The notes under the pieces: model-generated | Seen by the model: the letters and a program-made list of their open reading frames with translations, nothing else | The model's database searches: none | Told to the model about the DNA's origin: nothing | Program-made: the position numbers and the translations under genes | Assembly (NCBI GenBank): GCA_018664075.1 | Contig: JABJOY010000003.1 | Span: forward strand, 1 to 44,818 | Source: Porticoccaceae bacterium | GTDB taxonomy: Bacteria > Pseudomonadota > Gammaproteobacteria > Pseudomonadales > Porticoccaceae | DNA: 44,818 nt | Reading direction: 5' to 3' | Shown: positions 3,186 to 29,737 of the stretch, in pieces | Layout: each line of letters opens with the position of its first letter | Position numbering within the stretch: the first letter of the stretch is position 1

Positions 3186-3536
3186 CCCCTTTTTGATACT
3201 TTTTATAAGCCCTATACCCTGAGTGCTATTTAAGGGTGCGAGTCATAATCTTGGGCTTTAGATCTTATTTAAAAATGCCTCGCAAGGCTACACGCCCCTA
3301 AATTCGGCTCTTCGTTGTGGTAACCTGTTTTTTCTTAGGTGTAGATACGTGCTTGCCATGGAAGCAAGTTGCCTCTTTTAATAAAGAAAACAAATAAATG
3401 GATTTAGTTTATTAATTTGTGTCTCTCGTACCACTGAGAGAACATCGGGCTGTAGTTATAACAAAAATTATCCGAGTTCCGTTACATTTTTTTGGCGCTG
3501 GGTAGATCAAGTAATTCATTTTTGGGGAAGTTAATT
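3186..3536. other. Intergenic region and leader of the TonB-dependent receptor gene
   Basis: About 350 nt with no convincing gene. It contains a small inverted repeat TCTCTC (3422-3427) / GAGAGA (3436-3441) and a second possible hairpin CTTGC...GCAAG near 3352-3370. These could form structures in the untranslated leader of the receptor mRNA. A good Shine-Dalgarno (GGGGA, 3524-3528) precedes the ATG at 3537. No known riboswitch or Fur box was recognised. Confidence 0.45.
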
Positions 3537-6359: not shown

Positions 6360-6383
6360 TTGATAGATACATTCGTTAAAACT

Positions 6384-6413
6384 AATATGCCCCTTTTAAG
6401 GGGCATATTTTTT
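6384..6413 (+). terminator. Rho-independent terminator after the TonB receptor gene
   Basis: A perfect inverted repeat, AATATGCCCCTT / AAGGGGCATATT with a 2-nt loop, is followed by a T-run. It starts 24 nt after the receptor stop codon. It overlaps the TTG at 6412, which argues that the next gene starts further downstream. Confidence 0.9.
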
Positions 6414-6429
6414 GCCAAGGGAAAATGTT

Positions 6430-8412
6430 TTGAATCAGCAACATAAGATTGAAATTGAGCAGTTAATGCGTGGCAAGCGGTTTGATAAGGCGCTTGAATG
6501 TTTGGTATCAATATTAAAAGGCGATGATAACAATTTCGAAGCGCTCTACTACAGCGCAGTCTGCCTAAGGTATCTCGGGCGGTTAGATGATGCGTTAGCA
6601 TCTCTTGAGGCACTGCGTAAAATTGCTCCAAACTTTGGCAGGGGACTTCAGGAGGAGGGTCACGTTCATAGAGACCGAGGTAATCTAAAACAGGCATTGC
6701 ATCTCTATACTCGCGCTACCTACGCCAACCCGTCTCTCTCTGGAAGTTGGAGAGGGCAGATTGAGATTTTACTTAAACAGAATCGAGAGGCTGAGGCTAT
6801 TCGTCTTAAGCCTCATTTGGAGCGCCTTGTTAAAATGCCCCCACCGTTAGTCGCAGTAATGGACTTGATTGCCCAGGGTAAGTTGGCTAACGCGGAGACT
6901 CTGTGCCGGGACTTTCTAAAACAAACTCCCCACCATGTTGAGGCAATGCGACTTTTGGCCGAGATAGGGATGAAACTGAATATACTTCACGATGCCGAGT
7001 TCTTATTGGAGAGCGCATTAAAATTAGAGCCCGATAATGAGCTTTTGCGCGTTGAATATATCGAGTGTTTGCGTAAGCGGCAAAAAATTGAGGCCGCCCA
7101 TAAAGAAGTCTTAACACTTTACAATGCAAATCCGGACAACCTGCATTTTGAGTCTTTGTATGCGGTCCTTTGCATGCAAATGGGGCTTTATGAAAAAGCC
7201 TTAGAGTTATTTGATAACGTGCTAGCAAAAGTGCCTCAAGATCCAGTCACGCTAACTTCAAAGGGACATGCGCTAAAAACTTGCGGTAACACCGACGATG
7301 CTATTGCATCCTACAGGCTGGCTACAAAGAGCAGCAGTGCCTATGGGGAAGCCTGGCATTCACTCGCCAATCTAAAAACCGTGAAGCTGGATGAAAATGA
7401 TGTAAGTAAAATGCTTGCTCAGATAAATGGCGATGACCTTAAGTTTATGGATAGGGTGTACATCAACTTTTCACTGGGCAAAGCATTTGAAGATGCCGAA
7501 GATTTCGATAGAGCTTTTTCCCACTATGCGGCTGGCAACAAGTCTAAAAAAGCTCAGAGCCGCTACGTTGCCGAAGAGATGACCGACGAATTTGAGCAGC
7601 AAAAAAAGCTTTTTAGCGACAAGTTTATTAAAAGTTTAAACGGCTGCGGCCACAGTGCGGCTGACCCTATTTTCATCGTCGGATTACCCCGAGCGGGATC
7701 GACTTTGCTCGAACAAATACTCTCGTCCCACAGCCAGGTTGACGGTACCCTTGAATTGCCCAATGTGTTAGCTCTGGTCAACGATCTGCGCAGAGGTGGC
7801 AATATGACTGGGGATAATCTCTATCCGGGAATCTTGGAGACCCTCGACGCTGAAAAATATGCTGAGTTTGGCGAAGCCTTTATCAGCGATACTCAGGTAC
7901 ATCGTCAGGAGGCCCCATTCTTTATTGATAAAATGCCCAATAATTTCAGGCATATTGGACTGATTAAGTTAATGTTGCCCAACGCCAAGATTATTGATGC
8001 AAGGCGTCACCCCATGGGCTGCTGCTTTAGTGGCTTTAAGCAGCTTTTTGCCGAGGGGCAGGCATTTTCTTATGATCTGGGTGATATTGGGCATTATTAT
8101 CGTGATTACGAAGCTTTGATGGATTTTTGGCAAACCGCATTTCCCGGCCAAATATTGCATGTACAGTATGAAGATGTGGTCAATGATTTTGAAACTCAGG
8201 TGCGCCGTCTACTTCACTATTGCGGCTTGCCCTTCGAAGAGGCTTGTTTAAGTTTTTATAAAACCGAGCGGGCTGTCCGAACGCCGTCCTCAGAGCAGGT
8301 GCGTCAACCAATATACCGAGGGGGCATTGATCAGTGGAAGAACTTTGAGTCTCATTTGGATCCTCTCAAAGATGCTCTTGGAGAAGTACTTCACAGGTAT
8401 CCAATGGATTAG
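6430..8412 (+). CDS. TPR-repeat sulfotransferase family protein
   Basis: This 660-residue protein has two parts. Residues 1 to about 370 are tetratricopeptide repeats (for example YYSAVCLRYLGRLDDALASL and LLRVEYIECLRKRQKIEAAH). The C-terminal part is a sulfotransferase domain with the 5'-phosphosulfate loop GLPRAGST at 418-425 and a 3'-phosphate-type element DARRHPMGCCFSGF. It should transfer a sulfuryl group from PAPS, with the TPR part selecting a protein or peptide acceptor; the acceptor is unknown. No signal peptide is present, so it is probably cytoplasmic. The start chosen is TTG 6430, which has AAGGGA eight bases upstream; the TTG at 6412 lies inside the terminator. Adjacency to TonB receptors is a pattern I know from marine gammaproteobacteria. 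The dpkA-like gene starts 44 nt downstream and may be cotranscribed. Confidence 0.88.
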   Translation: MNQQHKIEIEQLMRGKRFDKALECLVSILKGDDNNFEALYYSAVCLRYLGRLDDALASLEALRKIAPNFGRGLQEEGHVHRDRGNLKQALHLYTRATYANPSLSGSWRGQIEILLKQNREAEAIRLKPHLERLVKMPPPLVAVMDLIAQGKLANAETLCRDFLKQTPHHVEAMRLLAEIGMKLNILHDAEFLLESALKLEPDNELLRVEYIECLRKRQKIEAAHKEVLTLYNANPDNLHFESLYAVLCMQMGLYEKALELFDNVLAKVPQDPVTLTSKGHALKTCGNTDDAIASYRLATKSSSAYGEAWHSLANLKTVKLDENDVSKMLAQINGDDLKFMDRVYINFSLGKAFEDAEDFDRAFSHYAAGNKSKKAQSRYVAEEMTDEFEQQKKLFSDKFIKSLNGCGHSAADPIFIVGLPRAGSTLLEQILSSHSQVDGTLELPNVLALVNDLRRGGNMTGDNLYPGILETLDAEKYAEFGEAFISDTQVHRQEAPFFIDKMPNNFRHIGLIKLMLPNAKIIDARRHPMGCCFSGFKQLFAEGQAFSYDLGDIGHYYRDYEALMDFWQTAFPGQILHVQYEDVVNDFETQVRRLLHYCGLPFEEACLSFYKTERAVRTPSSEQVRQPIYRGGIDQWKNFESHLDPLKDALGEVLHRYPMD

Positions 8413-8456: not shown

Positions 8457-9476
8457 ATGGCTAATCAAATGATGACAGTTGCTGATATACATCAGCTGGT
8501 GATTGATTGTTTTACGGCAAATGGCTGTGACATTGACAATGCTGCCGCGTTGGCGAGAACAATTAGTTTCGCTGAGCGCGATGGCAGTGCATCTCATGGC
8601 TTGTTTCGACTGCCTGGCTATATTGCTTCGTTGCGCAGCGGTAAAGTAGATGGCTGCGCTCAGCCAACAGTAGAGCGTATATCACCGAGCGTTATCCGGG
8701 TAGATGGAAAGCGTGGTTACGCTCCTCTAGCTCTTGAGAGAGGCCGTGCTGCATTAATCGAAGCTGCCAAAGAAAATGGCATAGCCGCCATGGCACTAAT
8801 CAATGTCCACCACTTCGCCGCACTCTGGGTTGAAGTGGAGCCAATTGCCGAGGCTGGTTGTTGCGCCATGGCATTTACCACTTACAAACCGGCCGTGGTG
8901 CCCGCTGGTGCCAAGCAGCCGCTATTTGGTACCAATCCCATGTGCTTTGGTTGGCCCCGCGGTGATCAGCCGCCCATGGTCTTTGATCAGGCCTCTGCTT
9001 CTATGGCTCGTGGTGAAGTAATGATTGCTGCGCGGGATGGCCATGATGTGCCGCTGGGCACCGGAGTAGATGCCGATGGCAACCCAACCACAGAGCCACA
9101 AAAAATTATTGATGGTGGTGCTCTACTGCCATTTGGAGGTCATAAGGGCTCGACCATTGCCATGATGATAGAGCTTTTGGTGGCTGGCCTGACCGGGATG
9201 GACTTTAGCTTTGAAGCGCAAAAAAATGATAATAATGATGGTGGCCCACCCAATGGTGGTGAGTTTATGCTGGCCATAGATCCCAATCGCTTTGGTGATG
9301 CCGACAACTGGCTACAGCATTCAGAATCATTTTTAGAGCGCCTTGCTGGTATGGAAGGGGCCCATATGCCGGGCAATCGTCGCTATGCTAATCGTGCCAA
9401 GTCGGCGGCTGAGGGTATTGCTGTCAGTGATGCCTTGCTCGCTAGTTGCAGGGAGTTTCTCAAGCCCGCAGATTAA
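8457..9476 (+). CDS. dpkA: LDH2-family oxidoreductase, DpkA-like cyclic imine reductase
   Basis: This 339-residue NAD(P)H-dependent enzyme belongs to the LDH2/malate dehydrogenase superfamily. It shows the family Ser-His-Gly (S46-H47-G48 in SASHGLFRLPGY), HHFAALW, the cofactor-region segment KQPLFGTNPMCF, and LLPFGGHKGS. These segments resemble delta-1-piperideine-2-carboxylate/delta-1-pyrroline-2-carboxylate reductase (DpkA of Pseudomonas putida) more than malate or ureidoglycolate dehydrogenases; the comparison is from memory. DpkA reduces cyclic imino acids to L-pipecolate or L-proline in D-lysine, D-proline and trans-3-hydroxyproline use. A strong GGGAG precedes the ATG. It converges on a LysR gene six bases away. 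A related malate or lactate dehydrogenase activity cannot be excluded. Confidence 0.75.
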   Translation: MANQMMTVADIHQLVIDCFTANGCDIDNAAALARTISFAERDGSASHGLFRLPGYIASLRSGKVDGCAQPTVERISPSVIRVDGKRGYAPLALERGRAALIEAAKENGIAAMALINVHHFAALWVEVEPIAEAGCCAMAFTTYKPAVVPAGAKQPLFGTNPMCFGWPRGDQPPMVFDQASASMARGEVMIAARDGHDVPLGTGVDADGNPTTEPQKIIDGGALLPFGGHKGSTIAMMIELLVAGLTGMDFSFEAQKNDNNDGGPPNGGEFMLAIDPNRFGDADNWLQHSESFLERLAGMEGAHMPGNRRYANRAKSAAEGIAVSDALLASCREFLKPAD

Positions 9477-9482
9477 TCATGC

Positions 9483-10385
9483 CTATGAATGATTGGCCTC
9501 GTTAGTGCGCAGGGTCAAATTATGCTTTCTGATTTGGCTGGGGGTTTCGCGGATAATGGTTTCGATCATCGCTTCAGCGGCGGGGGAGACCGTCCAGCCT
9601 TTGCGGGTAATCAGATAAACTTCCCGCGCCTGGGTTGGCACCAGGGGTCTGGATATCAGATTGTTTGAAAAAGCGGGAATCGCCAGAGAAGGCAACACAG
9701 AAACTCCTAAGTTGGATCTGAGCATGGCCAGTAACGTGGTGATATTGGGGAAATCAAACTTGGAGTCGCCGAAGCTGGCGCGGCTGCGCAGGGTTTTGGT
9801 AATGCCGGTATCCAAAAAGGTCGTGTCTTCTAATTCATTGATTTTTACTGGACCAGTCTTTTTCGCCAGCTGATGATCAACATGGCAGATTAGCTCCAGT
9901 TTATCGGCGAACAAAGGTTTGAAATTTAACAGCTTGTTGGGTTTCCACAGGCTGGCGATACCAAAGTCTACCTCATTGCGCTCGACCCGCCGCTGCACAC
10001 CCTGGGAGCTGTCATCATCCAGATGCAGGTAAATACCAGGGTACTCGGCTGAGAAGGCTTTAATAATATCCGGCAGTAGATTGCTTGCCACTGAGGGTAC
10101 GATAGCCATACTCACATGGCCACTGCGGCGTTCTGCGGTGGCGCGCAAGTCATAAATGGCACTATCAAAGTCGCGCACCAGACGCTGGGCTATGGGAATA
10201 AAATTCTCTCCTTCTACTGTGGTGCTCACTTGCCTCGTCGTGCGCTCCAATAGCTTTAAGCCAATAAATTCTTCCAGCTGTTTGACGGCCAATGTGATGG
10301 CGGGCTGTGTGCGTGAGAGTTTTTCAGCAGCACCATTAAAGCTGCCCTCTTCGGCGACAGTCACAAAGGTGCGTAGATGTCTCAA
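9483..10385 (-). CDS. LysR-family transcriptional regulator
   Basis: About 300 residues, with an N-terminal winged helix-turn-helix (LRTFVTVAEEGSFNGAAEKL and TQPAITLAVKQLE) and the periplasmic-binding-like effector domain from about residue 90. It lies between a DpkA-like reductase (convergent) and an aldehyde dehydrogenase (divergent). By the usual LysR layout it most likely controls the divergent aldehyde dehydrogenase-dipeptidase genes. The start is odd: the only canonical codon near the family N-terminus is TTG at 10385, with no good Shine-Dalgarno. The frame is open for about 28 codons further upstream without ATG or GTG, so the true start may be a non-standard codon or lie upstream. Confidence 0.85.
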   Translation of the reverse strand: MRHLRTFVTVAEEGSFNGAAEKLSRTQPAITLAVKQLEEFIGLKLLERTTRQVSTTVEGENFIPIAQRLVRDFDSAIYDLRATAERRSGHVSMAIVPSVASNLLPDIIKAFSAEYPGIYLHLDDDSSQGVQRRVERNEVDFGIASLWKPNKLLNFKPLFADKLELICHVDHQLAKKTGPVKINELEDTTFLDTGITKTLRSRASFGDSKFDFPNITTLLAMLRSNLGVSVLPSLAIPAFSNNLISRPLVPTQAREVYLITRKGWTVSPAAEAMIETIIRETPSQIRKHNLTLRTNEANHS

Positions 10386-10569
10386 AGTTACATTTAAGTA
10401 TCTGATAATATTCTCTTTCTTGTAATTATTAGTAGCTTTGTTGATTTTTAGAATAAATTAATTATCCTTATAAATCTATATAAAGTTTTGATTGGATTTA
10501 TAGGTGCTTAGGGATAAAGATAGGGCGTTATGGCGTTAGTTAGCGCTAAAAATTACAGGCGGAGACAGT
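10386..10569. promoter_or_regulatory. Divergent promoter region between LysR and aldehyde dehydrogenase genes
   Basis: This AT-rich 184-nt region carries a perfect 10-nt palindrome TTAGCGCTAA at 10540-10549, close to the aldehyde dehydrogenase start and preceded by repeated GCGTTA elements. It is a plausible operator for the divergent LysR protein. GGCGGAG (10559-10565) is a good ribosome binding site for the ATG at 10570. Assigning the site to this regulator is inference from position. Confidence 0.4.
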
Positions 10570-12015
10570 ATGAGTCAGGATTTACACAACAATTATATTA
10601 ATGGCGAATGGGTCGGCAGTTCACAGGTCATTGAAAATATAAACCCCTCAGATACAAGCGATATAGTCGGCCGTTATGCCAAGGCCTCCAATAAGGACTG
10701 TCTGGCCGCTATCGGCGCGGCCAATGCTGCTTTTGACGGCTGGTCACAAAGTGCTCTGGAGCAGCGCAAAACCATACTCGATTTTATTGGTGCCGAACTT
10801 ATAGCCCGCAGCGGTGAAATTGGCGAGATTCTGGCCCGAGAGGAAGGGAAAACTCGTGCGGAAGGCGTGGGTGAAGTGTATCGCTCCGGACAGTTCTTTC
10901 AATATTACGGCGCTGAAGTCCTGCGCCTGATGGGTGAGAACACTCAGTCTGTGCGTCCCGGGGTGGATGTGGAAGTTCACCGGGAAGCTCTGGGTGTGAT
11001 TGGCATTGTTACACCCTGGAATTTCCCCATGGCTGTAGCGGCCTGGAAAGTGGCACCGGCGATAGCCTATGGCAATGCGGTAGTGCTCAAACCGGCCGAG
11101 TTGGTGCCGGGCAGTGCCTGGATACTGGCCGATATTATCAGTCGCAGCGGTCTGCCCGATGGTGTATTTAATCTGGTGATGGGCTCTGGTCGAGATGTGG
11201 GTGAGACTCTCTGTAAATCCCCGGACATTCAAGCTGTTACCTTTACGGGCTCTGTCGGAGTAGGTCGCCATATTGCCCGCAATGCGATTGATAATATGGC
11301 CCGCGTGCAGCTGGAGATGGGCAGTAAAAATGCTCTGGTAATCCTGGACGATGCCGATCTCGATACAGCAGTGCAATGTGCCGTGGCTGGCGCCTATTTT
11401 GGTACAGGACAGAAATGTACCGCCTCATCGCGAATTATTGTGCAGGCTGGTATTCATGATGAGTTTGTCGAGAAAATGACTGCCGCTGTAAGCAATCTGG
11501 TGGTAGGCCATGCTCTGGCCGAGGGTTCACAGATAGGCCCGGTGGTGGATGGACGTCAGCTACAGCAGAACCTTGACTATATGCAGATTGCCAGAGATGA
11601 AGGCGCCGAGCTGGTGCTGGGTGGCGAAGCTCTGACCATGGATACTACAGGTTTTTACATGTCTCCCGCACTGTTTGTGAATACCAATAACCAGATGCGC
11701 ATTAACCGCGAAGAGGTCTTTGGTCCTATTGCCTGTGTGATCAAGGTGGATAGCTATGAAGAGGCCCTGGAGGTCTCTAATGACTCAGACTTTGGTCTGA
11801 CCTCTGGGATCATTACCAATAGCCTGGCCAATGCCGGCCACTTTAAGCGCCACTCAAAGTCTGGCTGTGTGATGGTTAACCTGCCTACCGCAGGTACCGA
11901 TTACCATGTGCCCTTTGGCGGTCGTAAAAACTCAAGCTATGGCCCCCGCGAGCAAGGCCAGTATGCCCGTGAGTTCTACACTATTATCAAAACTAACTAC
12001 AGCAAGCCCTATTAA
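10570..12015 (+). CDS. Aldehyde dehydrogenase, alpha-ketoglutarate-semialdehyde-type (YcbD-like)
   Basis: This 481-residue NAD(P)-dependent aldehyde dehydrogenase has every catalytic element in place: the oxyanion Asn in TPWNFPMA, the Rossmann FTGSVGVG, the general base Glu249 (LEMGSKN) and the nucleophile Cys283 (GTGQKCTASSR). The C-terminus (PFGGRKNSSYGPREQG then EFYTIIKT) and the N-terminal NYINGEWV resemble the Bacillus YcbD/2,5-dioxovalerate dehydrogenase group, which oxidises alpha-ketoglutarate semialdehyde in glucarate or hydroxyproline pathways. Succinate or glutarate semialdehyde are alternatives. The M19 dipeptidase homologue starts 17 nt after its stop, so the two form an operon. 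With the DpkA-like gene nearby, breakdown of a cyclic amino acid or its betaine is a reasonable inference. Confidence 0.8.
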   Translation: MSQDLHNNYINGEWVGSSQVIENINPSDTSDIVGRYAKASNKDCLAAIGAANAAFDGWSQSALEQRKTILDFIGAELIARSGEIGEILAREEGKTRAEGVGEVYRSGQFFQYYGAEVLRLMGENTQSVRPGVDVEVHREALGVIGIVTPWNFPMAVAAWKVAPAIAYGNAVVLKPAELVPGSAWILADIISRSGLPDGVFNLVMGSGRDVGETLCKSPDIQAVTFTGSVGVGRHIARNAIDNMARVQLEMGSKNALVILDDADLDTAVQCAVAGAYFGTGQKCTASSRIIVQAGIHDEFVEKMTAAVSNLVVGHALAEGSQIGPVVDGRQLQQNLDYMQIARDEGAELVLGGEALTMDTTGFYMSPALFVNTNNQMRINREEVFGPIACVIKVDSYEEALEVSNDSDFGLTSGIITNSLANAGHFKRHSKSGCVMVNLPTAGTDYHVPFGGRKNSSYGPREQGQYAREFYTIIKTNYSKPY

Positions 12016-12032
12016 TTGCAATTCAGGATTAA

Positions 12033-13034
12033 GTGATGAACAGAGAGATGCTTCTTGTCGACGGGCTGCAATATGTTAATTGGAACCGCGACCTTTTCGA
12101 AAAGGCCCAGCGCAGTGGTTTAAGCGCCATTCATGTAACCATCGCATACTGGGAAAATATCCGCGAGACATTGGAGAATATAGGTAACTGGAATCGGCAT
12201 TTTATCAACCATGCTGATTTGATTATGCCGATTCATCAGGCTGCGGATATCCTTGAAGCCAAGCGTCTGGGCAAAGTGGGCATTATCTTTGGTTTCCAGA
12301 ACTGCTCTCCCATCGAAGACGATGTCAAAATGGTGCAGATTCTGCAACAGCTGGGGGTGCGTATTATGCAGCTCAGCTACAACAATCAGAGTCTGCTGGC
12401 CACCGGCTGTTATGAAGAGCAGGATGGCGGTATCACCAGATTTGGCCGCGAAGTGATAAAAGAGATGAACCGCGTCGGTATGATTATCGATATGTCCCAC
12501 AGTGCCGAAAAGTCGACTCTGGAAGCCATCGAGATTTCCGAACGACCGATTGCCATCACCCATGCCAATCCAAGCTTTTTTCACCCAGCACTGCGCAATA
12601 AATCTGATAAAGTGCTGCGTGCCATCGGTGAGTCAGAAGGTATGCTGGGCTTTAGCATGTATCCCTTCCATCTCAAAAATGGATCCGATTGTACCCTGCC
12701 TGAGTTCTGTCAGATGATTGCTCAAACTGCTGAGATTATTGGCGTGGATCGTATCGGCATTGGTTCCGATCTCTGTGAGAACTGGGACTATTCGATACTG
12801 GAGTGGATGCGCAGTGGCCGCTGGACCACTGGCATTGATCATGGTGAAGGCTCTGCGGCCAATCCCAGCTGGCCCCGTCAACCGAACTGGTTTGCCGGTT
12901 CAAAAGATATGCTGACAGTGGCACAGGGTCTCGAAGATGTGGGCTTTGCCAATGGAGATATTGAGAAAATTATGGGTCAAAACTGGTTGTCATTTTTTGA
13001 AAAATCTTTTCCGGGCGCGCCGCTAAGTTCTTAA
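12033..13034 (+). CDS. M19 (membrane dipeptidase) homologue lacking canonical metal ligands
   Basis: This 333-residue protein has the renal-dipeptidase TIM-barrel fold and the two downstream His ligands, His156 in IIDMSHS and His177 in AITHAN. The family's first metal-binding motif Asp-Gly-His-x-Asp is replaced by DGLQY (Leu12, Tyr14), and the bridging Glu of the Gly-x-Glu-Gly motif is replaced by Gln89 (GFQN). The same replacements (DGL...WNRELF and GFQN) occur, as I recall, in the P. aeruginosa dipeptidase homologue PA5396 beside the dimethylglycine demethylase genes, so this is a distinct subfamily tied to betaine catabolism rather than a decayed copy. Its reaction is unknown: perhaps a one-metal hydrolase or amide/lactam opener. 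No signal peptide is visible. It is coupled to the aldehyde dehydrogenase gene. Confidence 0.8.
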   Translation: MMNREMLLVDGLQYVNWNRDLFEKAQRSGLSAIHVTIAYWENIRETLENIGNWNRHFINHADLIMPIHQAADILEAKRLGKVGIIFGFQNCSPIEDDVKMVQILQQLGVRIMQLSYNNQSLLATGCYEEQDGGITRFGREVIKEMNRVGMIIDMSHSAEKSTLEAIEISERPIAITHANPSFFHPALRNKSDKVLRAIGESEGMLGFSMYPFHLKNGSDCTLPEFCQMIAQTAEIIGVDRIGIGSDLCENWDYSILEWMRSGRWTTGIDHGEGSAANPSWPRQPNWFAGSKDMLTVAQGLEDVGFANGDIEKIMGQNWLSFFEKSFPGAPLSS

Positions 13035-13077
13035 AGTCAGTTTATAAAATGGTTATAACAAAAGCCATTTAACAGCT

Positions 13078-13118
13078 AAAAACGACTATGTCGCAACCGA
13101 GTTTTCCATGTCGTTTTT
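13078..13118. terminator. Probable bidirectional hairpin terminator
   Basis: A perfect 9-nt inverted repeat AAAAACGAC (13078-13086) / GTCGTTTTT (13110-13118) flanks a 23-nt loop. A smaller AAATGG/CCATTT repeat (13047-13052, 13065-13070) lies just upstream. It follows the dipeptidase gene and may end the aldehyde dehydrogenase-dipeptidase transcript. The long loop makes the call moderate. Confidence 0.5.
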
Positions 13119-13210
13119 AATTAAGTCGCGGGGGATATCTAGGCCTAAAATAGCCGCAATTCCCAGCCCTAACCAGGTGCTGGAGACGGCTATTTTTACA
13201 GGTGTCGCCC

Positions 13211-14980
13211 GTGCATTCATCCTACAGATCAACTGCCAAGTCCAGTCTCAGTCAAAGTGCTGTATTGCCCATGCGGCCTGCCAGTCAGGTCATGCAGTTG
13301 AATCGTCTGGGTAGTTTTCATCAGTCTCGTCTGAGCTTTATGCGCACATTGGTACGCCGCATGGTGCAGGAAAACTGGCAGATCAACAGCACTGTTTTTG
13401 ATCTGGATACAGAGGGGTATGGCACTGCTGTCTATGAAGTCAAAGCCAAATATGGCACCTATAGCTATGTGCTGTTTTCCCATTACCTCGACCCTGAAAA
13501 CCGCAATGATCGAGTAATTGCCGACCAATGGGACCTGACCATGGCGCTCTGTGAGGGCTCAGTGGATGCCGAGCAGCTGGAGTTTCTGCGCAACAATGTA
13601 CCCAAGCAAGAAGCAGGGCGGGTTGATTCCCGGGTTTTTGTATTGTCCAGGGGCAACCGCAGTGGTCGTACCTTTGACTATGTGGTTGATCAACTGACCC
13701 AGGGCAGACAGCCAGATGTGGATGTCATTGCCGAAGTTGGCTATCTGTATCGCACCACCGCAGCCTATGGCAGTGGCAAATTGGGTATGGCCGACTGGGA
13801 AAAAGTTCGTACCAAACATCGGGATTTTGCTCGTCCTTTCGCCGCAGAAATGTTTACCTGCTTTATGTTGCGCCATTTTAGCCTTCAGCATGCTGACTAT
13901 ATCGCAGCCCAGCGTGCGCCAAAAACTGCAGTAAAGCTGGATGATGATATCAAGCGCTACTTTGGTATTGGCAACTCTACCGGCCTGGGTATGGCGCCAT
14001 TTTTAATTAATCATCCGCTGCTGATTAATCAATGGATTGAACAGCGTGAAACCGCATTGGCCAGAGCTATTATGGCTGGCAGAGAGGGGCTGGATACTGC
14101 CATCTTGGACAGGTTCGCCTCTGGCACTGCCAGAGTGATTCAACATCTGGGAGAGATCAGTACAGGTGACACCCAGCAAAATATCTCCAACGGTTTGGTG
14201 CGCGAAGAGCTGCAGGAGCTTGAGCATTGGTTGCGGGCTGAAGGCAAAAATATTATTGATAGCCATTACAGCTGGGCTGAATTAGTGCAGTACGCCGAGT
14301 GCAACTGGCATATTGAAACTCAGGAAGTGATCAATAGCATGTTGATTGAACTCTACCCAGAGTTGGTCGATGAGCTGGAAGAGATGATGGCCGTTGAAGA
14401 GGACCAGCATCTGGTGCCACAGATGTCGCTGGATGATCTAAAGGACCTTATCGAAGATAAATATGATTGGGCGCTGGCTATCGATTTTTCCCGGACTGAA
14501 TCCCAGGGTTCATTCTGGTATCGCTCGGAAGAAAAGATGGAGCCGCGACTGGGGCAGACCTATGTTGATATGGGTATGGAAAAGCAAATGCCACTGGCAA
14601 TCGGACGTATGGTGCGTGAGTGCTATGACGAAATTTGTATTTATATGACAGAGTTTCCACAGCAGGATGTTGCCCATTTTATTCTCCAGCAACCCAATTT
14701 CAGTGGTGCTATTTGCCGTATTCAAACCATGGCTCGCAGTCAATATGGTGATATTCGCGAGAACCTGGTGCACAGTGATGTACTGCCTATTCACCTGCTG
14801 CGCTGCAAGCTGTCATTCTTTGGTGTCAGCAAGTTTGATCCGCGCTCGCGCCTGTGGGTTCGCAATACTATGTTCCAGGGCGCACCGCTGATCAGCGACT
14901 TCGGCAAGCCTTTCTTTGATGACTGGCAGTTCCCCATTAAACCTGTGCTATCCAGTACTTCAGACTCTAGCGTCGGCTAA
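13211..14980 (+). CDS. Uncharacterised 589-residue cytoplasmic protein
   Basis: I do not recognise the family. The protein has no signal peptide or membrane span. It is mixed alpha/beta with an acidic middle (DELEEMMAVEEDQH near residues 390-403). Distinctive segments are RLSFMRTLVRRM, VFVLSRGNRSGRTFDY, GYLYRTTAAYGSGKLGMADW and RYFGIGNSTGLGMAPFLINHP; two glycine-rich loops (GSGKLG and GIGNSTGLG) could bind a phosphate or cofactor but match no motif I know. The start is uncertain: GTG 13211 has AGGTG at 13200-13204; GTG 13202 and ATGs at 13271 and 13292 are alternatives, and similarity-type sequence seems to begin near LNRLGSFHQSRLS. The next gene starts four bases after its stop, so the two are translationally coupled. 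It lies in a module with an aldehyde dehydrogenase and an M19 homologue, suggesting a catabolic enzyme. Confidence 0.85.
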   Translation: MHSSYRSTAKSSLSQSAVLPMRPASQVMQLNRLGSFHQSRLSFMRTLVRRMVQENWQINSTVFDLDTEGYGTAVYEVKAKYGTYSYVLFSHYLDPENRNDRVIADQWDLTMALCEGSVDAEQLEFLRNNVPKQEAGRVDSRVFVLSRGNRSGRTFDYVVDQLTQGRQPDVDVIAEVGYLYRTTAAYGSGKLGMADWEKVRTKHRDFARPFAAEMFTCFMLRHFSLQHADYIAAQRAPKTAVKLDDDIKRYFGIGNSTGLGMAPFLINHPLLINQWIEQRETALARAIMAGREGLDTAILDRFASGTARVIQHLGEISTGDTQQNISNGLVREELQELEHWLRAEGKNIIDSHYSWAELVQYAECNWHIETQEVINSMLIELYPELVDELEEMMAVEEDQHLVPQMSLDDLKDLIEDKYDWALAIDFSRTESQGSFWYRSEEKMEPRLGQTYVDMGMEKQMPLAIGRMVRECYDEICIYMTEFPQQDVAHFILQQPNFSGAICRIQTMARSQYGDIRENLVHSDVLPIHLLRCKLSFFGVSKFDPRSRLWVRNTMFQGAPLISDFGKPFFDDWQFPIKPVLSSTSDSSVG

Positions 14981-14984
14981 TATC

Positions 14985-15716
14985 ATGAGAGTCTCACGCA
15001 ATGAATTGACGGCTTCTCTAAAGAAGGCGTTTGAAGGCTTAGGCTTTTCTGTGGGTGACTATCAGGATGCTGCAGCTATGGTTATCTGGTCGGAGATGCA
15101 TGGTTTGAATGGTTTGCAGCAACTGCAGGATGCACTGCCTTCCCTTTATAGCTGTCTGTGCCTGCACGCAAAATTAATTAGAAATGATGACAACTATGCG
15201 CTGCTCAATGGTCAGAGTAGTTCTATATTGCTCTGCGGCAGCCAGACCGTCAGACTGGCCTGTGCTCTGGCGCGTCAGCAAGGCAGCGGTCAGGTGCAGC
15301 TGGATAACTGTCACAACCGCAGGTTTATAGCTCAGCGTCTGGTCAGCGCCGCGCAGTCGGATTCTGCACTGGTGGCTTATTGGGTTGAGGGAGATAGGGC
15401 TTTTAAACTCAGTGTAGAGTCAGGTGCAAAACAGCCGATCTATTCTGAATTTGCCTCAACAGCCATTAGTGCCGATCAGTCTCTAATGATTTTTGTCGGC
15501 AATGATTTGGCTGCTGTCGAAGCAAAGTTTTCTGCCGCCATAAATCCAGGTCCGCCAATCGAAACCACTTCACCTGACACCATGATTAATAGCTATAACG
15601 ATATGCTAGAGCAGGGAATCGAGATTGACGACAACCTGTGGCATGAGCTGGACAATCTGGTCGCCCGAGTCTTAGTGGAATCCACCGAAAGCTCCAGAGC
15701 AGGGGCAGGAGACTAA
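14985..15716 (+). CDS. Uncharacterised 243-residue protein with LDH2-like N-terminus
   Basis: The first 50 residues (VSRNELTASLKKAFEGLGFS, then DAAAMVIWSEMHGLNGL) follow the N-terminal helical pattern of LDH2-family dehydrogenases, but the catalytic Ser-His-Gly is replaced by Gly-Leu-Asn. The protein is also about 100 residues shorter than that family and lacks its cofactor-binding segments. The C-terminus (LVESTESSRAGAGD) recalls proteins I remember as DUF3726; this is unverified. It may be a structural or regulatory partner of the preceding 589-residue protein, to which it is tightly coupled (4-nt gap). ATG 14985 is chosen because upstream in-frame starts lie inside the preceding gene. No signal peptide. 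Confidence 0.8.
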   Translation: MRVSRNELTASLKKAFEGLGFSVGDYQDAAAMVIWSEMHGLNGLQQLQDALPSLYSCLCLHAKLIRNDDNYALLNGQSSSILLCGSQTVRLACALARQQGSGQVQLDNCHNRRFIAQRLVSAAQSDSALVAYWVEGDRAFKLSVESGAKQPIYSEFASTAISADQSLMIFVGNDLAAVEAKFSAAINPGPPIETTSPDTMINSYNDMLEQGIEIDDNLWHELDNLVARVLVESTESSRAGAGD

Positions 15717-15788: not shown

Positions 15789-16679
15789 TTAGTCTGCGAC
15801 TTCGGCTTGATTGATTAACCACTGCCGAAACTGCTCCACATGGGGTCGCACGGGCTTATTGGATGGGATCGCCGAAAAGAATGATTCAGACGTCTCGGTA
15901 GTCTGTGAAAAAGGCGTGATCAGACGACCATTATCCAGCATGGGACCAATCAGGGAAGTCCGGCTCAAAGCAACACCATGCCCCTGAGCTGCCATCTCCA
16001 TTGCCGTCATCAACGAATCAAAATGAATACCCTGAGAAGCATCAATACTGTGATAACCCAGCTGGTTGAGCCAATAGCCCCAGCCTTCCTCATAACCAAT
16101 CACATGGAGCAAACTGTAATTATCAAGATCCTCTGGACCTAACGGGGGCAACTGGTCATTCAGCAGCACCGGGCTACATACTGGAATAAGCTCATCCAAG
16201 GTTAAACGATCACTGGTAAAACCCGCCCAGACTCCTTTGCCATAGCGTATTTCAATATCCGCCTCTTTATCCTGGCCAGCAACCCAGATATTACTGGTAA
16301 AGCGCAGATCAATATCCGGATACTGGGCGCGAAAATCCGCCAGCCTCGGTGCCAGCCAGGTATTAAAAAATACCAGATTAACCCGCACCGTTAAGGTGTG
16401 ACTGCGCTCCTTGCCAAATACCTCATCAGTGACTAGCGCCAGTTTCTCAATCGACTCGCGCACGCCGGGGATATAGGCGCGGCCTGCATCGGTAAGCTCC
16501 AGCCCTCTGGGTAAGCGAATAAATAGTGCGCAACCCAGCTTGGTTTCCAGACCTTTAATTTGCTGGCTAACCGCAGCCTGAGTCATATGCAACTCCACTG
16601 CCGCCTGGGTAAAGTTCAGGTGGCGGGCAGAGGCTTCAAAAGAACGCAGCCAGTTTAGAGGTGGTAATCTTTTTTTCAT
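15789..16679 (-). CDS. LysR-family regulator (GcvA-like)
   Basis: This 296-residue LysR protein has the sequence style of the GcvA/AmpR branch: LNWLRSFEASARHLNFTQAA, then HMTQAAVSQQIKGLE, an effector domain beginning near TLTVRVNLVFFNTWLAPRL, and MAAQGHGVALSRTSL. It is the last gene of the dddT-dddB-dddC-iclR series, starting 24 nt after the IclR stop codon, so it is probably cotranscribed with the DMSP genes. DMSP clusters of Marinomonas type carry a LysR regulator, DddR; this protein or the IclR could fill that role. It converges on the 243-residue gene, 72 nt away. Confidence 0.87.
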   Translation of the reverse strand: MKKRLPPLNWLRSFEASARHLNFTQAAVELHMTQAAVSQQIKGLETKLGCALFIRLPRGLELTDAGRAYIPGVRESIEKLALVTDEVFGKERSHTLTVRVNLVFFNTWLAPRLADFRAQYPDIDLRFTSNIWVAGQDKEADIEIRYGKGVWAGFTSDRLTLDELIPVCSPVLLNDQLPPLGPEDLDNYSLLHVIGYEEGWGYWLNQLGYHSIDASQGIHFDSLMTAMEMAAQGHGVALSRTSLIGPMLDNGRLITPFSQTTETSESFFSAIPSNKPVRPHVEQFRQWLINQAEVAD

Positions 16680-16703
16680 GCTTACCTTATTATGACCGGT
16701 TAA

Positions 16704-17468
16704 TTATTCTGGGTTATCAATCAGCTGGCCGAGGCTTTTGGCGGCATTTTGCATTGTCGGTGCATAGCTGATCAGCTGTTCCAGACTCTTGCGCATCACC
16801 GGTGCATGGGTAAACAGACAGGCACAGAGTTTGCCGCTGCTATCTGTTACCGGCACCGCGCAGGCCACCATACCATCGACAAACTCCTCATTGTCTGTAC
16901 CCAGGCGACTTATTTTTATCCGCTGTAACTCGGTTTCCAACAGATCGGTATCAACAATGGTATTACGGGTGTACTGCATCAGGGGAAGTCGGCCAATAAT
17001 ACCTTGCCGTCGCTCTTTGGGCAGAGAACTGAGGTAGAGTTTGCCGCTGGCGGTACACCAGCTCGGCGTATGGCTGCCCACCTGCAGATGAATCTGCAGA
17101 GGCCAGTCAGACTGCACGCGATCGTAATAAACCATCTCGGTACCATTGGGTACAGCAATACCACAGGTCTCACCAATCTCCTCCGTCAGCTGCTGCAAAA
17201 TGGCTCGGCGCAATGCACTAAATCGCTCTGTATGCAGCACACCCCAGGCAATGCTGTGCATCTTATCGCTGGGAATAATCAGTCCGCGCATACTGGTCTG
17301 CACAAAGCCGTCAGACTCCAGTTGATTTAGCAGGCGATGAATACTGGGCTTGGGGATATTCAGCTGGCAGGCCAGATCAGCCGGCGACAATGGTCGCTCA
17401 GCTTTGGCAACTGCCTCGATTATCTGCATCACCCGGCTGACCGCCGAGCCTTTTTCCCTGATTGTCAT
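16704..17468 (-). CDS. IclR-family transcriptional regulator
   Basis: This 254-residue protein has an N-terminal winged helix-turn-helix (AVSRVMQIIEAVAKAERPLS, then IPKPSIHRLLNQLESDGFV) and a C-terminal IclR ligand domain with SWCTASGKLYLSSLP and VACAVPV. IclR proteins sense small carboxylates such as glyoxylate, pyruvate or aromatic acids. The start lies nine bases after the dddC stop codon, so it is in the ddd operon. A natural inference is that it responds to an intermediate such as 3-hydroxypropionate or malonate semialdehyde. The ligand is not shown by the sequence. Confidence 0.9.
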   Translation of the reverse strand: MTIREKGSAVSRVMQIIEAVAKAERPLSPADLACQLNIPKPSIHRLLNQLESDGFVQTSMRGLIIPSDKMHSIAWGVLHTERFSALRRAILQQLTEEIGETCGIAVPNGTEMVYYDRVQSDWPLQIHLQVGSHTPSWCTASGKLYLSSLPKERRQGIIGRLPLMQYTRNTIVDTDLLETELQRIKISRLGTDNEEFVDGMVACAVPVTDSSGKLCACLFTHAPVMRKSLEQLISYAPTMQNAAKSLGQLIDNPE

Positions 17469-17477
17469 GGTTTTAAT

Positions 17478-18974
17478 TTAGCTCATGGTTGGCATCGAGA
17501 ACTGGGCACCTTCACGAACACCAGCTGAAGGCCAGCGCTGAGTGATGGTTTTGCGCTTGGTATAAAAGCGCACAGCATCCGGGCCATAGGCATGGAGATC
17601 ACCAAATAATGAGCGCTTCCAGCCGCCAAAGCTGTGGTAGGCCACCGGGACAGGCAGAGGAATATTAATGCCCACCATGCCCACCTGAATATGGTCAGAG
17701 AAATAGCGCGCCGCTTCACCGTCTCTGGTAAAGATGCAGGTGCCATTGCCATATTCATGATTATCGATCAGATCCATGGCCGCCTGCATGGTATCCACTC
17801 GAATCACCTGCAAAACCGGGCCAAAGATTTCGGCATTGTAGGAATCCATCTCTGGGTTCACGCGGTCGATCAATGTGCCGCCCACATAGAAACCATTCTC
17901 ATAGCCATGAATGCTGGGGTTGCGACCGTCCACGACAATATCAGCCCCTTGCTGTTCGGCACTGTCGATATAGCCAAATACCTTTTGCTGATGTTGCTGG
18001 GTAATCACCGGGCCAAAGTCATTATCGGCATCATGACAGGGGCCAATCTTTAAGCCTTTCATGGCTTCCTGCATTTTGCTGACCAGAGCATCTGCCGCGG
18101 CATCGCCAACGGCTACTGCAACTGACAGGGCCATGCAGCGCTCGCCGGAAGAACCAAAGGCAGCGCCTAAAAGCTGGGCCACGGCATTATCCATATCCGC
18201 ATCGGGCATCACAATAGCGTGATTCTTGGCGCCACCCAGTGCCTGACAGCGCTTGCCGTTGGCACTGGCGGTGCTGTAGATATATTCCGCAATAGGCGTG
18301 GAACCTACAAAGCTCACGGCTTTAATGCGCTCATCATGGAGCAATGTATCAACCGCTTCCTTATCGCCATTGACCACATTCATCACGCCATCTGGCAATC
18401 CGGCTTCTTTCAGCAGTTCAGCAATAAACAATGTGGAAGTTGGGTCGCGCTCCGAGGGTTTCAGTACAAAGCAGTTGCCGCAGACGATGGCCATTGGGTA
18501 CATCCACAGAGGGACCATAGCCGGGAAATTAAATGGGGTAATACCTGCCACTACCCCAAGCGGTTGGAACTCGCTCCAGGAATCAATATTGGGCGCCACA
18601 TTTTTACTGTGCTCGCCTTTTAACAATTCCGGTGCGCAGCAGGCATATTCCACATTCTCAATGCCACGCTGCAATTCACCGGCGGCATCATGGCTGATCT
18701 TGCCATGCTCTTCGCCGATTAATGCACAGATTTTATCCGCGTTCTGTTCCAGCAGATCCTTAAATTTAAACATTACCCGGGCGCGTTTGATGGCTGGGGT
18801 ATTGCGCCATTCGGGGTAAGCTGCCTGGGCCGCCGCAATGGCTTCTTCCACTGTAGCCTTTGAAGCCAGGGCAACCTGTTTGCTCACTTCGCCGGTGGAG
18901 GGGTTGTAGACATCCTGAGTGCGCTCGCCCTCATTGGTTATCTGGCCGTTAATTAAATGTCCTACTACTGTCAT
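17478..18974 (-). CDS. dddC: DddC, CoA-acylating malonate/methylmalonate semialdehyde dehydrogenase
   Basis: This 498-residue enzyme of the MmsA type is recognised by the catalytic Cys280 in GERCMALSVAV, TPFNFPAMVPLWMYP, SFVGSTPIAEYIY and FFTRDG-like/FGDLHAYGPDAVRFYT C-terminal segments. MmsA enzymes oxidise semialdehydes to acyl-CoA with NAD and CoA. In DddD-type DMSP catabolism DddC converts malonate semialdehyde to acetyl-CoA. Its position just after the Fe-alcohol dehydrogenase and BCCT transporter genes, opposite dddD, supports dddC over mmsA of valine degradation: no mmsB or branched-chain genes are nearby. ATG 18974 is chosen over 19004 because GAGGA sits seven bases upstream. The gap from dddB is 23 nt. 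Confidence 0.87.
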   Translation of the reverse strand: MTVVGHLINGQITNEGERTQDVYNPSTGEVSKQVALASKATVEEAIAAAQAAYPEWRNTPAIKRARVMFKFKDLLEQNADKICALIGEEHGKISHDAAGELQRGIENVEYACCAPELLKGEHSKNVAPNIDSWSEFQPLGVVAGITPFNFPAMVPLWMYPMAIVCGNCFVLKPSERDPTSTLFIAELLKEAGLPDGVMNVVNGDKEAVDTLLHDERIKAVSFVGSTPIAEYIYSTASANGKRCQALGGAKNHAIVMPDADMDNAVAQLLGAAFGSSGERCMALSVAVAVGDAAADALVSKMQEAMKGLKIGPCHDADNDFGPVITQQHQQKVFGYIDSAEQQGADIVVDGRNPSIHGYENGFYVGGTLIDRVNPEMDSYNAEIFGPVLQVIRVDTMQAAMDLIDNHEYGNGTCIFTRDGEAARYFSDHIQVGMVGINIPLPVPVAYHSFGGWKRSLFGDLHAYGPDAVRFYTKRKTITQRWPSAGVREGAQFSMPTMS

Positions 18975-18997
18975 TTTGTTGTCCTCAAAAATTTGTT

Positions 18998-20155
18998 TTA
19001 CCAAAGCTTACGATAGATTTCGATAATCTCGTCGGCGCTAGGTACTCGCGGATTATTTCCCGGTGAGCCAGAAGCCAGAGCCTGCTCAGCCATCACCGGT
19101 AAGTTATTAAAAAAGTGGTCGCGATCAATACCAAACTGCTCGGGAGTGGGTACCTGCAGTTCTTCATTAATAGCGTAAAGCTCATCCATTAGCTTGCTGT
19201 TGGCAACAGCGTCGGTGTCATCTTCACTGGCCACACCCATAGCGCGAGCACAGTCTGCATAGCGCTCCGCCGCGGCGGGAATACTGTATTCAGTGACCAT
19301 GGGCAATAACATGGCATTGGAGAGGCCGTGGGGCACATGGTAGAAGGCGCCAATCGGACGTGACATACCGTGGACCAACGCCACTGAGGCATTGGAGAAC
19401 GCTACACCGGCCAGGGTTGCGCCCAGCATCATTTGTTCACGGGCACGTCGATCACTGCCATCGTGGAAAGCTTTGCGCAGATTAGGGGCAATCAGCTTCA
19501 TTGCCGCTATGGCCTGACTGTCGCTATAGAGGCTGGCTTTCTTGCTCACATAGGCTTCCATGGCATGAGTCAGGGCATCAATACCTGTGTCTGCAGTGGT
19601 TCTGGCGGGCAGGCTCAGGGTCAGGCTGTAATCTACCAGAGCCGCCGTGGGCATAAAACCAATGCCAACACAGAGCATTTTTTCGTCGTTGGTCTCATCG
19701 GTAATAATGGTCACCTTGGTGCATTCAGAGCCGGTGCCTGCAGTGGTGGGAATAGCAACAATGGGCAGCCCGGGCTCATTGACCACCCGGGGGAATTTAT
19801 AGTCACGCATGACGCCGCCGTATTTGCCCAGAATGGCAATGGCTTTGGCACTGTCAATGGGGCTGCCACCGCCAATGGCAATAATGCTGTCGTAATTGCC
19901 ATCCCGCACCTTATCCACACCTTCCTGAATAGAGCTAACGGTGGGCTCAGGCACAGTATTATCAAAGATATCTGAATCGATTGATGCGCCTTGTAGACTA
20001 TCCTGCAGAATGGCCACATAGCCCAGTTGCACCATCATTTTGTCAGTGACAATTAATGGCCGGTTACAGTCCAGACTGCGCAGGATATTACCCGCTTCTT
20101 TGCTGGCACCGGCACCTACTTGCATAATGCGCGGCAAAATTATTTGAGTCGACAT
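18998..20155 (-). CDS. dddB: DddB, iron-containing 3-hydroxypropionate dehydrogenase
   Basis: This 385-residue group III alcohol dehydrogenase has a complete metal site, Asp193, His197 (GIDALTHAMEAY), His262 (ALVHGMS) and His276 (HVPHGLSNA), with the same spacing as in the FucO family. The NAD-binding GGGSPIDSAK is at 95-104. In DMSP clusters of this type DddB oxidises 3-hydroxypropionate to malonate semialdehyde, which DddC then consumes. The assignment rests on the gene set dddT-dddB-dddC beside dddD; sequence alone would give only an Fe-dependent alcohol dehydrogenase. It is separated from dddT by two bases and from dddC by 23, so all three form one operon. Confidence 0.87.
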   Translation of the reverse strand: MSTQIILPRIMQVGAGASKEAGNILRSLDCNRPLIVTDKMMVQLGYVAILQDSLQGASIDSDIFDNTVPEPTVSSIQEGVDKVRDGNYDSIIAIGGGSPIDSAKAIAILGKYGGVMRDYKFPRVVNEPGLPIVAIPTTAGTGSECTKVTIITDETNDEKMLCVGIGFMPTAALVDYSLTLSLPARTTADTGIDALTHAMEAYVSKKASLYSDSQAIAAMKLIAPNLRKAFHDGSDRRAREQMMLGATLAGVAFSNASVALVHGMSRPIGAFYHVPHGLSNAMLLPMVTEYSIPAAAERYADCARAMGVASEDDTDAVANSKLMDELYAINEELQVPTPEQFGIDRDHFFNNLPVMAEQALASGSPGNNPRVPSADEIIEIYRKLW

Positions 20156-20157
20156 AA

Positions 20158-21714: not shown

Positions 21715-21921
21715 AAAATTTCTCTGAATATTGTTATTCTAATTTTATTTAAAACGATATGATTCGTATTGTTATCCAGTTAAGAGCTGTATGCAACCGT
21801 TAAATTTAGCCTTTTTGTAATCAATTTCTCAGCCATAAAAAAAACCATGCCTGAGGCGACTTTTTTGTTGCTGGCGCGATATTCGTTAGGTTTCTAACAT
21901 CCCGCTTAACAAAGACGGCTG
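21715..21921. promoter_or_regulatory. dddT-dddD divergent control region with operator-like dyads
   Basis: This 207-nt AT-rich region separates the divergent dddT and dddD genes. At 21753-21773 lies an imperfect 21-nt palindrome, with half-sites AACGATATGA and TCGTATTGTT around a central T; 16 of 20 arm positions are symmetric. At 21885-21898 is a perfect dyad GTTAG-GTTT-CTAAC, only 24 nt before the GTG at 21922, and GCCTGAGGC lies near 21849. These are plausible binding sites for the IclR and/or LysR proteins encoded in the operon. Which protein binds is not known. Confidence 0.5.
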
Positions 21922-26515: not shown

Positions 26516-26517
26516 GG

Positions 26518-29726: not shown

Positions 29727-29737
29727 TGGCATCTCCC

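Follow-up and report, generated by a model that had tools for sequence, protein, structure and literature searches.

The gene module at 8457-15716 of the window (the whole stretch of DNA analysed, 44,818 nucleotides in length) is best explained as a pathway for the catabolism of homarine (N-methylpicolinate betaine), probably the published hom operon, and we put the probability of this reading at roughly 0.7. Homarine is favoured because the Ldh_2-family enzyme of the module is close to delta1-piperideine-2-carboxylate reductase, because the module adjoins genes of the N-methylglutamate dehydrogenase (Mgd) clade both in Ruegeria TM1040 and in Phaeobacter, and because Mgd is said, in the accessible part of PMC13390433, to participate in homarine catabolism. 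The first-pass annotation had proposed an osmolyte pathway with homarine as one named candidate, and these three lines of evidence support it. The proline betaine and hydroxyproline betaine that it had also named gave way to homarine, and no sign of either was seen.

The window comes from a marine SAR92-type bacterium. An open reading frame check and sequence searches against Pfam, NCBIfam and PDB confirmed the plus-strand quartet described earlier within 10570-15716, which consists of genes for an aldehyde dehydrogenase (10570-12015), an M19 protein (12033-13034), a protein of no known family, hereafter the orphan (13211-14980), and a DUF3726 protein (14985-15716). Their tight spacing in pairs was also found as described, with gaps of 17 bp between the aldehyde dehydrogenase and M19 genes and 4 bp between the orphan and DUF3726 genes. 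The M19-orphan gap is 176 bp, and several relatives hold a BCCT transporter gene there, unlike the window module. All four genes thus exist as described, but they make up only part of the unit, which also takes in a divergent LysR gene and, beyond it, the plus-strand Ldh_2 gene (8457-9476). Co-occurrence was counted at 40 phylum-sampled loci, at 41 loci from a genome-contig search, and in a genus set of 36 orphan-bearing and 14 orphan-free genomes. The Ldh_2 gene (at least 78% identity) was carried by 33 of the 36 orphan-bearing but by none of the 14 orphan-free genomes, and is therefore assigned to the unit. Two SAR92 records that carry no MAG label, H231 (L006) and H921 (L012), are among those with the module. 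The two flanking LysR genes reported previously are both present on the minus strand. The one divergent from the aldehyde dehydrogenase gene (9483-10385; Pfam HTH_1 and LysR_substrate) has counterparts at 21/40 phylum-sampled loci and 31/41 loci from the genome-contig search, and it is likely the regulator of the module (a candidate HomR). The right-hand, GcvA-like LysR gene (15789-16679) is probably not a member, because loci L017, L019-L022 and L042 are without it and all keep the module.

The aldehyde dehydrogenase (481 aa; Pfam Aldedh) kept C283, E249 and N151, which we take to be its active-site residues, in at least 97% of 69 alignment rows. It had been assigned to the YcbD/KGSADH type; it is indeed KGSADH-like, but it scored far below the curated NCBIfam equivalog cut-offs for alpha-ketoglutaric semialdehyde dehydrogenase (498.6 against 750 bits for NF052305 and 480.1 against 770 bits for NF042993). 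Canonical Peptidase M19 dipeptidases have a binuclear metal site with an HxD motif on strand 1 and a bridging glutamate. The 333-aa M19 protein of the window belongs to the Pfam family (Peptidase_M19, E 2e-75), but HxD is gone and the position of the bridging glutamate is occupied by glutamine, whereas two histidines and the strand-8 aspartate (H156, H177 and D246), presumably metal ligands, were retained in at least 97% of 100 rows. Thus, the absence of canonical metal ligands noted at first is only partial, and, as judged from these residues, the protein is not a canonical dipeptidase. Its best PDB match, 2i5g (E 4e-69), likewise lacks HxD and differs in being labelled there as an amidohydrolase only. 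We regard the M19 protein as a candidate N-formyl (amide) hydrolase.

The orphan is 589 aa long if translation begins at the GTG of 13211, and other starts would shorten it to as little as about 569 aa; it had no match in Pfam, NCBIfam or PDB sequences. Its AlphaFold2 model (pLDDT 77.9) gave no Foldseek match against the PDB at E 0.001 and nothing over Z 5.0 in VIA-align, so membership in a known fold was rejected, which does not by itself make the fold novel. Many positions are conserved in at least 97% of 106 rows; a single histidine (H268) is among them, and metal-binding residues were therefore discarded as a proposal. The conserved stretches near 187-194, 437-445 and 543-550 lie where the model pLDDT is below 50. 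The DUF3726 protein (243 aa) matched its Pfam family (PF12525) with E 2e-14 on the open reading frame from 14916, scoring 53.5 bits against a gathering cut-off of 22.1. According to a confident model (pLDDT 90.7; Z 15.7-20.1 to Ldh_2 folds), it has a shortened Ldh_2 fold. The likeness to LDH2 seen earlier was therefore correct, but the protein is not a fragment, because its family is conserved and its structure was modelled with confidence. In Mesorhizobium it is fused to the orphan, and it is likely a partner subunit of the latter. A literature search on DUF3726 found no paper.

The Ldh_2 protein (Pfam E 2e-100; 336.5 bits against a cut-off of 38.8) had its best PDB match in the delta1-piperideine-2-carboxylate reductase DpkA (1wtj, E 9e-93; runner-up 1.6e-39), with 47% identity across 323 positions. 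The Ldh_2 protein of Ruegeria TM1040 is only 38% identical to that of the window. In TM1040 and Phaeobacter the SoxB next to the module is 69-70% identical to an Aminobacter SoxB encoded beside glnT and glutamate-synthase-like genes, and shares a clade with it (100/100); in TM1040 a helix-turn-helix gene lies between the Mgd-clade genes and the module (TM1040_RS02315-02345). The window enzyme is predicted to form N-methyl-L-glutamate through reduction of a C=N intermediate.

In the window, a Sox-like set occupies 25814-30979 on the minus strand and encodes SoxB-like (29738-30979), SoxD-like (29436-29741, between soxB and soxA), SoxA-like (26518-29439) and SoxG-like (25814-26515) subunits; purU (31004-31882, minus strand) encodes a formyltetrahydrofolate deformylase for one-carbon disposal (TIGR00655, 321.8 bits, cut-off 285.95). 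The Sox-like genes had been taken for sarcosine genes. A Sox-like set is indeed there, but the sarcosine oxidase label is doubtful, given that SoxA and SoxB scored below the NCBIfam cut-offs (885.3 against 1164 bits for TIGR01372 and 463.7 against 529.45 bits for TIGR01373) and that in the tree SoxB branched apart from the clade that holds 2gag and the genome's second SoxB copy. The SoxG-like protein had no NCBIfam match at 1e-20. The window SoxB is 42% identical to the glnT-linked Aminobacter SoxB and stands in a separate clade (100/100). The tree position thus suggests a third clade of N-methyl amino acid dehydrogenases that is neither sarcosine oxidase nor Mgd; the long branches of the tree (L115, L116, 2gag) make placements inside the Mgd/sarcosine-oxidase half less sure. 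In two gammaproteobacterial MAGs (L035 and L037) sox-like genes follow in line after the core, with SoxB 80% identical to that of the window, SoxD 64% (L035), SoxA 61% and SoxG 48% (both L037); these loci lack the window-type aldehyde dehydrogenase, and their Ldh_2 is only 34-35% identical. The window-type SoxB was found in 34/36 orphan-bearing and 1/14 other genus genomes. We do not accept this pattern as proof of module membership for the set, since a SoxB of the sarcosine oxidase clade (41-47% identity) tracks the orphan almost equally (32/36 and 2/14), and both types may merely follow genome size and ancestry. The set could possibly act like Mgd; we regard it as a candidate N-methylglutamate dehydrogenase, which may provide the last step of the pathway.

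The computed results, namely the gene content, the conserved association of the genes, the family assignments and the fold of the DUF3726 protein, lead us to infer the following route. Homarine would be imported by a BCCT transporter, as carried inside the module by several relatives. The orphan, a candidate ring-activating or ring-opening enzyme, together with its DUF3726 partner would activate the pyridinium ring and open it between C5 and C6, giving an N-formyl-N-methyl semialdehyde. The aldehyde dehydrogenase would convert the aldehyde to the carboxylate, the M19 protein would cleave the N-formyl amide with release of formate, and the DpkA-like enzyme would reduce the C=N compound to N-methyl-L-glutamate. 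Finally, the SoxBDAG-like complex would demethylate N-methylglutamate to glutamate, with PurU taking the one-carbon unit. The order of the steps between ring opening and C=N reduction is a chemical proposal, in which homarine less ring carbon 6 gives the carbon skeleton of N-methylglutamate. A Pfam scan of seven proteins revealed no oxygenase domain, and ring opening is for this reason placed on a protein of unknown fold; as the orphan matches nothing, it may be a novel type of oxygenase. We entertain only tentatively, and with some doubt, the bolder combination in which M19, orphan and DUF3726 form a new system, lacking any recognisable oxygenase and perhaps with a new fold, for opening rings of the N-methylpyridinium type, and the third-clade SoxBDAG replaces Mgd in SAR92.

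The spread of the core bears on the choice of substrate. M19, orphan and DUF3726 genes recur together widely (M19 at 37 of the 40 phylum-sampled loci), so the expected association of the orphan proteins with this M19 was recovered, and their homologues do not lie mostly in unrelated neighbourhoods. The association with the dehydrogenase recurs as well but is less frequent (20/40), and Ldh_2 was present at 11/40 loci; many loci keep the core alone, with other partners. The core could accordingly be a general set of enzymes for various substrates, with something else again as the substrate in the window. In Sinorhizobium meliloti a distant orphan-M19 cluster, on replicons of pSymB size, adjoins an ABC importer, an aminotransferase and a succinate-semialdehyde dehydrogenase, and at L104 other open reading frames adjoin the core, which fits such versatility. 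However, Sox- or Mgd-type genes adjoin the core whether the set is complete (TM1040, Phaeobacter, L096) or lacks this aldehyde dehydrogenase (L035, L037 and, by gene type only, L124 and L128), which suggests an N-methyl amino acid in each case; none were seen beside the core at the Vibrio and Pseudomonas loci. We therefore consider a different substrate unlikely.

Another pyridinium betaine, chiefly trigonelline (N-methylnicotinate), could be broken down by like chemistry; it belongs to the same chemical class and uses the same transporter type as homarine. The core genes also occur in soil and plant-associated bacteria, for which trigonelline would matter, since higher plants accumulate it, as stated in the accessible part of PMC8269262. 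The same portion of that paper has the known route begin with the TgnA/TgnB oxygenase, whereas Pfam found no such domain in the module proteins. According to the available text of PMC4207669, S. meliloti lacking pSymA cannot grow on trigonelline, so a cluster on a pSymB-size replicon would be insufficient for its use; in the parts of the literature on the rhizobial trc genes that were accessible, no gene assignment was found. In addition, on chemical grounds the carbon of trigonelline offers no simple path to N-methylglutamate, and this substrate is quite improbable. A saturated N-methylated ring (N-methylpipecolate, hygric acid or proline betaine), which would suit a DpkA-like enzyme acting on piperideine or pyrroline carboxylate, is very unlikely, given that the Pfam scan of the seven proteins brought up no Rieske-type demethylase, that such a ring should need neither a large unknown enzyme nor an amide hydrolase, and that the module-mgd adjacency indicates N-methylglutamate.

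Homarine is an osmolyte with a pyridine ring that occurs in marine plankton and in marine animals. As a solute of marine plankton it can make up as much as 0.25% of particulate carbon, the value given in the authors' correction (PMC10134881). For Ruegeria pomeroyi as an organism, the accessible part of PMC12817926 describes rapid removal of homarine from diatom medium; the statement in PMC8269262 on its growth on homarine was retracted by the authors' correction (PMC10134881) and forms no part of the evidence here. Once the genes for homarine use are known, its turnover can be read from genomes, and the case offers a concrete, testable relabelling of genes that currently bear the names sarcosine oxidase, hypothetical protein or membrane dipeptidase. 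The proposed replacement of Mgd by the third-clade dehydrogenase, the DUF3726 fold and the spread of the core to a haloarchaeal plasmid and to Sinorhizobium are testable; if the bolder combination holds, the core on that plasmid and on the pSymB-size replicon would mark a whole class of hitherto unrecognised betaine pathways.

The natural substrates of DpkA are delta1-piperideine-2-carboxylate and delta1-pyrroline-2-carboxylate. The same enzyme converts a keto acid and methylamine to an N-methyl amino acid (PMC8070496, accessible part). The window enzyme shares its family but differs in operon context, and its substrate is deduced. With MgdABCD the Sox-like set shares the four-subunit layout, differing in clade. 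The available portion of PMC13390433 places mgdABCD of R. pomeroyi next to tmaR, which encodes an AraC regulator. We also compared the module with other pyridine carboxylate pathways. The TgnABCDE pathway of Acinetobacter baylyi, which has an N-methylated pyridine carboxylate as its substrate, includes aldehyde and N-formyl amide steps, as would the route proposed here; the module has no recognisable oxygenase, uses other enzyme families and would yield N-methylglutamate. The homarine operon homABCDER, which Ferrer-Gonzalez et al. are said to have described (Nat Microbiol 2026), reportedly comprises five catabolic genes and a regulator and occurs in Rhodobacterales and SAR11-like genomes. Our search of the homarine literature found no paper recognisable from its accessible text as giving the hom gene list. 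By gene count only, the window with its five catabolic genes and a LysR gene resembles that operon. The core occurs in Rhodobacterales and in single-contig alphaproteobacteria that we call SAR11-like solely from their size of 1.2-1.3 Mb and their local GC of 28-30%, and the adjacency of module and Mgd in TM1040 and Phaeobacter matches Mgd as the downstream step (PMC13390433, accessible part). The window module contrasts with that operon in its Ldh_2 gene beyond the LysR gene, in the lack of BCCT, and in a nearby dehydrogenase from outside the Mgd clade.

The four plus-strand genes claimed by the first-pass annotation were all present at their positions; the finding was real but had been described too small. 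The module is better drawn as a unit spanning 8457-15716, which comprises, in order, an Ldh_2 reductase gene (8457-9476), a divergent LysR gene (9483-10385), a KGSADH-like aldehyde dehydrogenase gene (ALDH, 10570-12015), an M19 gene (12033-13034), an orphan (13211-14980) and a DUF3726 gene (14985-15716). The host genome consists of 104 contigs (2.06 Mb), and the nearest relatives of the orphan protein (85-91% identity) come from Porticoccaceae, SAR92 and Pseudomonadales genomes, so the host is likely a marine gammaproteobacterium of the SAR92 type. Directly before the Ldh_2 gene lie genes for a TonB-dependent receptor and a TPR/sulfotransferase-like protein (3492-8412), possibly providing outer-membrane uptake of the module's substrate. 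The TPR/sulfotransferase gene was present on 18 of the 21 loci with a window-type Ldh_2 (at least 57%), and two of the three others begin at the Ldh_2 gene. Between the module and a set of SoxBDAG-like genes (25814-30979, minus strand), family matches revealed a DMSP-type cluster (15789-24543) with DddD-, DddB- and DddC-like, BCCT and IclR genes. On loci L014, L019-L022 and L042, DddC and DddB are kept, DddD and BCCT are absent, and LysR and Sox genes follow.

The orphan protein served as the query for neighbourhood comparison and gave 41 related loci in the genome collection, besides matches in 38 of 397 phylum-sampled genomes, in 53 of 385 genomes from the class of genome G264 and in 168 plasmid records. 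Loci were fetched with up to about 8 kb per side, some stopping at contig edges, and genes were detected by bit-score cut-offs fixed in the script. Across the collection loci, 40 phylum-sampled loci and 18 hand-chosen loci (which are no sample), respectively, M19 of the module type was detected on 40/41, 37/40 and 16/18, DUF3726 on 39/41, 34/40 and 14/18, ALDH on 35/41, 20/40 and 7/18, and Ldh_2 on 24/41, 11/40 and 5/18. M19 lay at most 400 bp from the orphan on the same strand on 26/41, 20/40 and 12/18 loci; on the remaining ones a BCCT gene separated the two or the M19 gene was inverted. The grouping exceeds chance, and these counts, together with the spacing and orientation of M19 and the orphan, define a core of M19-orphan-DUF3726 with ALDH, Ldh_2, LysR and BCCT as frequent companions. 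Thus, the neighbourhood check proposed earlier confirmed the recurrence of the orphan and DUF3726 with the M19 subfamily, whereas recurrence with ALDH held for the collection and was less frequent elsewhere. On one locus from a genome bin (L034, 8001-9699) the orphan gene is broken into three ORF pieces between seemingly intact neighbours, reflecting decay or an assembly error. Another (L104, 5596-9623) combines the core with other genes, among them an acyl-CoA-dehydrogenase-like ORF recognised by eye, and lacks an ALDH of the module type; this arrangement, found in some alphaproteobacterial genomes, is perhaps a paralogous pathway.

The core extends well beyond the genus. It is carried by two single-contig genomes, G665 (1.2 Mb, local GC 0.30) and G748 (1.3 Mb, 0.28), which by these two signs alone are SAR11-like; a SoxA-like sequence lies nearby on locus L124, and SoxB, SoxD and SoxA on L128. 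In Sinorhizobium meliloti (L142, 7941-11387) the orphan (28% identity), a DUF3726-like gene and M19 (41%) stand in a row, neighboured by an IclR gene, an ABC importer, an aminotransferase and a succinate-semialdehyde dehydrogenase. On a haloarchaeal plasmid of Natrinema versiforme (L143, 8088-10618), the orphan (33% identity to that of the window) and a DUF3726-like protein are flanked by ALDH and BCCT; M19 was not found on the fetched stretch. This 317-residue neighbour matches the DUF3726 alignment profile and, judged from its length, may be an Ldh_2/DUF3726 intermediate.

Homarine, an option already named in the first-pass annotation, is the best-supported substrate. By the chemistry that we infer for the steps from ring opening to N-methylglutamate, homarine without ring carbon 6 would be an N-methylglutamate skeleton. 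After ring opening the route would have to oxidise an aldehyde, hydrolyse an amide and reduce a C=N bond, and the module encodes members of the enzyme families for all three reactions. In the alignments, ALDH retained the active-site residues Cys283, Glu249 and Asn151, and M19 lacked HxD and carried Gln at the bridging Glu position, the remaining ligands being retained, so that the M19 metal site is incomplete. The closest solved relative of Ldh_2 was delta1-piperideine-2-carboxylate reductase (E 9e-93; runner-up 1.6e-39), and the same holds for the Ldh_2 of Ruegeria TM1040 (E 5e-53), which is only 38% identical to that of the window. According to PMC8070496, DpkA forms N-methylphenylalanine from phenylpyruvate and methylamine. 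The DUF3726 model (pLDDT 90.7) aligned to Ldh_2 enzymes over approximately residues 1-230, with Z 15.7-20.1 against 15 Ldh_2 entries and 4.7 for the next match, and the protein is about 90-115 residues shorter than the matched enzymes. The orphan is the candidate for ring opening solely by elimination; it had no hit among Pfam, NCBIfam and PDB sequences, and its predicted model gave no PDB fold match at E 0.001. In Mesorhizobium a single 814-residue ORF comprises the orphan and DUF3726, which argues for a complex of the two proteins.

In TM1040 and Phaeobacter inhibens the gene order is soxBDAG-type genes, a helix-turn-helix gene, LysR, ALDH, M19, BCCT, orphan and DUF3726, followed in TM1040 by Ldh. 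SoxB of both strains grouped with Aminobacter SoxB (support 100/100), which adjoins glnT and glutamate-synthase-like genes and is, from this context, an N-methylglutamate dehydrogenase (Mgd). According to PMC13390433, the AraC-type tmaR adjoins mgdABCD in R. pomeroyi and Mgd has a role in homarine catabolism. On loci of two gammaproteobacterial MAGs, L035 and L037, Ldh_2-like, M19, orphan, DUF3726 and soxB genes stand in a row, followed by soxD at the contig end in L035 and by soxA and soxG in L037; no window-type ALDH was seen on either. Their SoxB is 80% identical to that of the window (L037 SoxA 61%, SoxG 48%) and falls into the same clade, which is distinct from both the Mgd and the 2gag (sarcosine oxidase) clades. 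The window Sox set itself lies 10 kb from the module. The host's second SoxB (L118, 3640-5007) belongs to the sarcosine oxidase clade (62% identity to 2gag), and the corresponding region of the relative G011 (L119) contains a DMGDH-length ORF (839 aa) and ORFs read by eye as corrinoid-type genes; by association, the window set is therefore the stronger candidate to act on N-methylglutamate. Its clade is not bound to homarine throughout, since other members adjoin purU and folD or importers of amino acids and have no module next to them.

Among 50 genomes of the genus, including that of the window, 36 carried the orphan. Window-type SoxB (at least 86% identity) was present in 34 of these (in two pieces in G003) and in 1 of the 14 others, DddD (at least 73%), whose gene lies in the stretch separating module and Sox set, in 26/36 and 1/14, and Ldh_2 (at least 78%) in 33/36 and 0/14; the Fisher values against the orphan (P = 4e-9, 6e-5 and 7e-10, respectively) carry less weight given that bins are incomplete, ancestry is shared and genomes are small. 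The sarcosine-oxidase-clade SoxB (41-47% identity) showed nearly the same pattern (32/36 and 2/14), so the co-occurrence is not specific to the window Sox set. Its useful residue is that Ldh_2 occurs among these genomes only together with the orphan. Two orphan copies were found in G044 and in G011 (L043 and G011:C2:1535-3292), each G011 contig carrying its own DddD and SoxB.

The operon corresponding to this module has probably been published already as homABCDER, and the novelty is therefore modest. What is new in comparison is the possible replacement of the dehydrogenase and the wider spread of the core.
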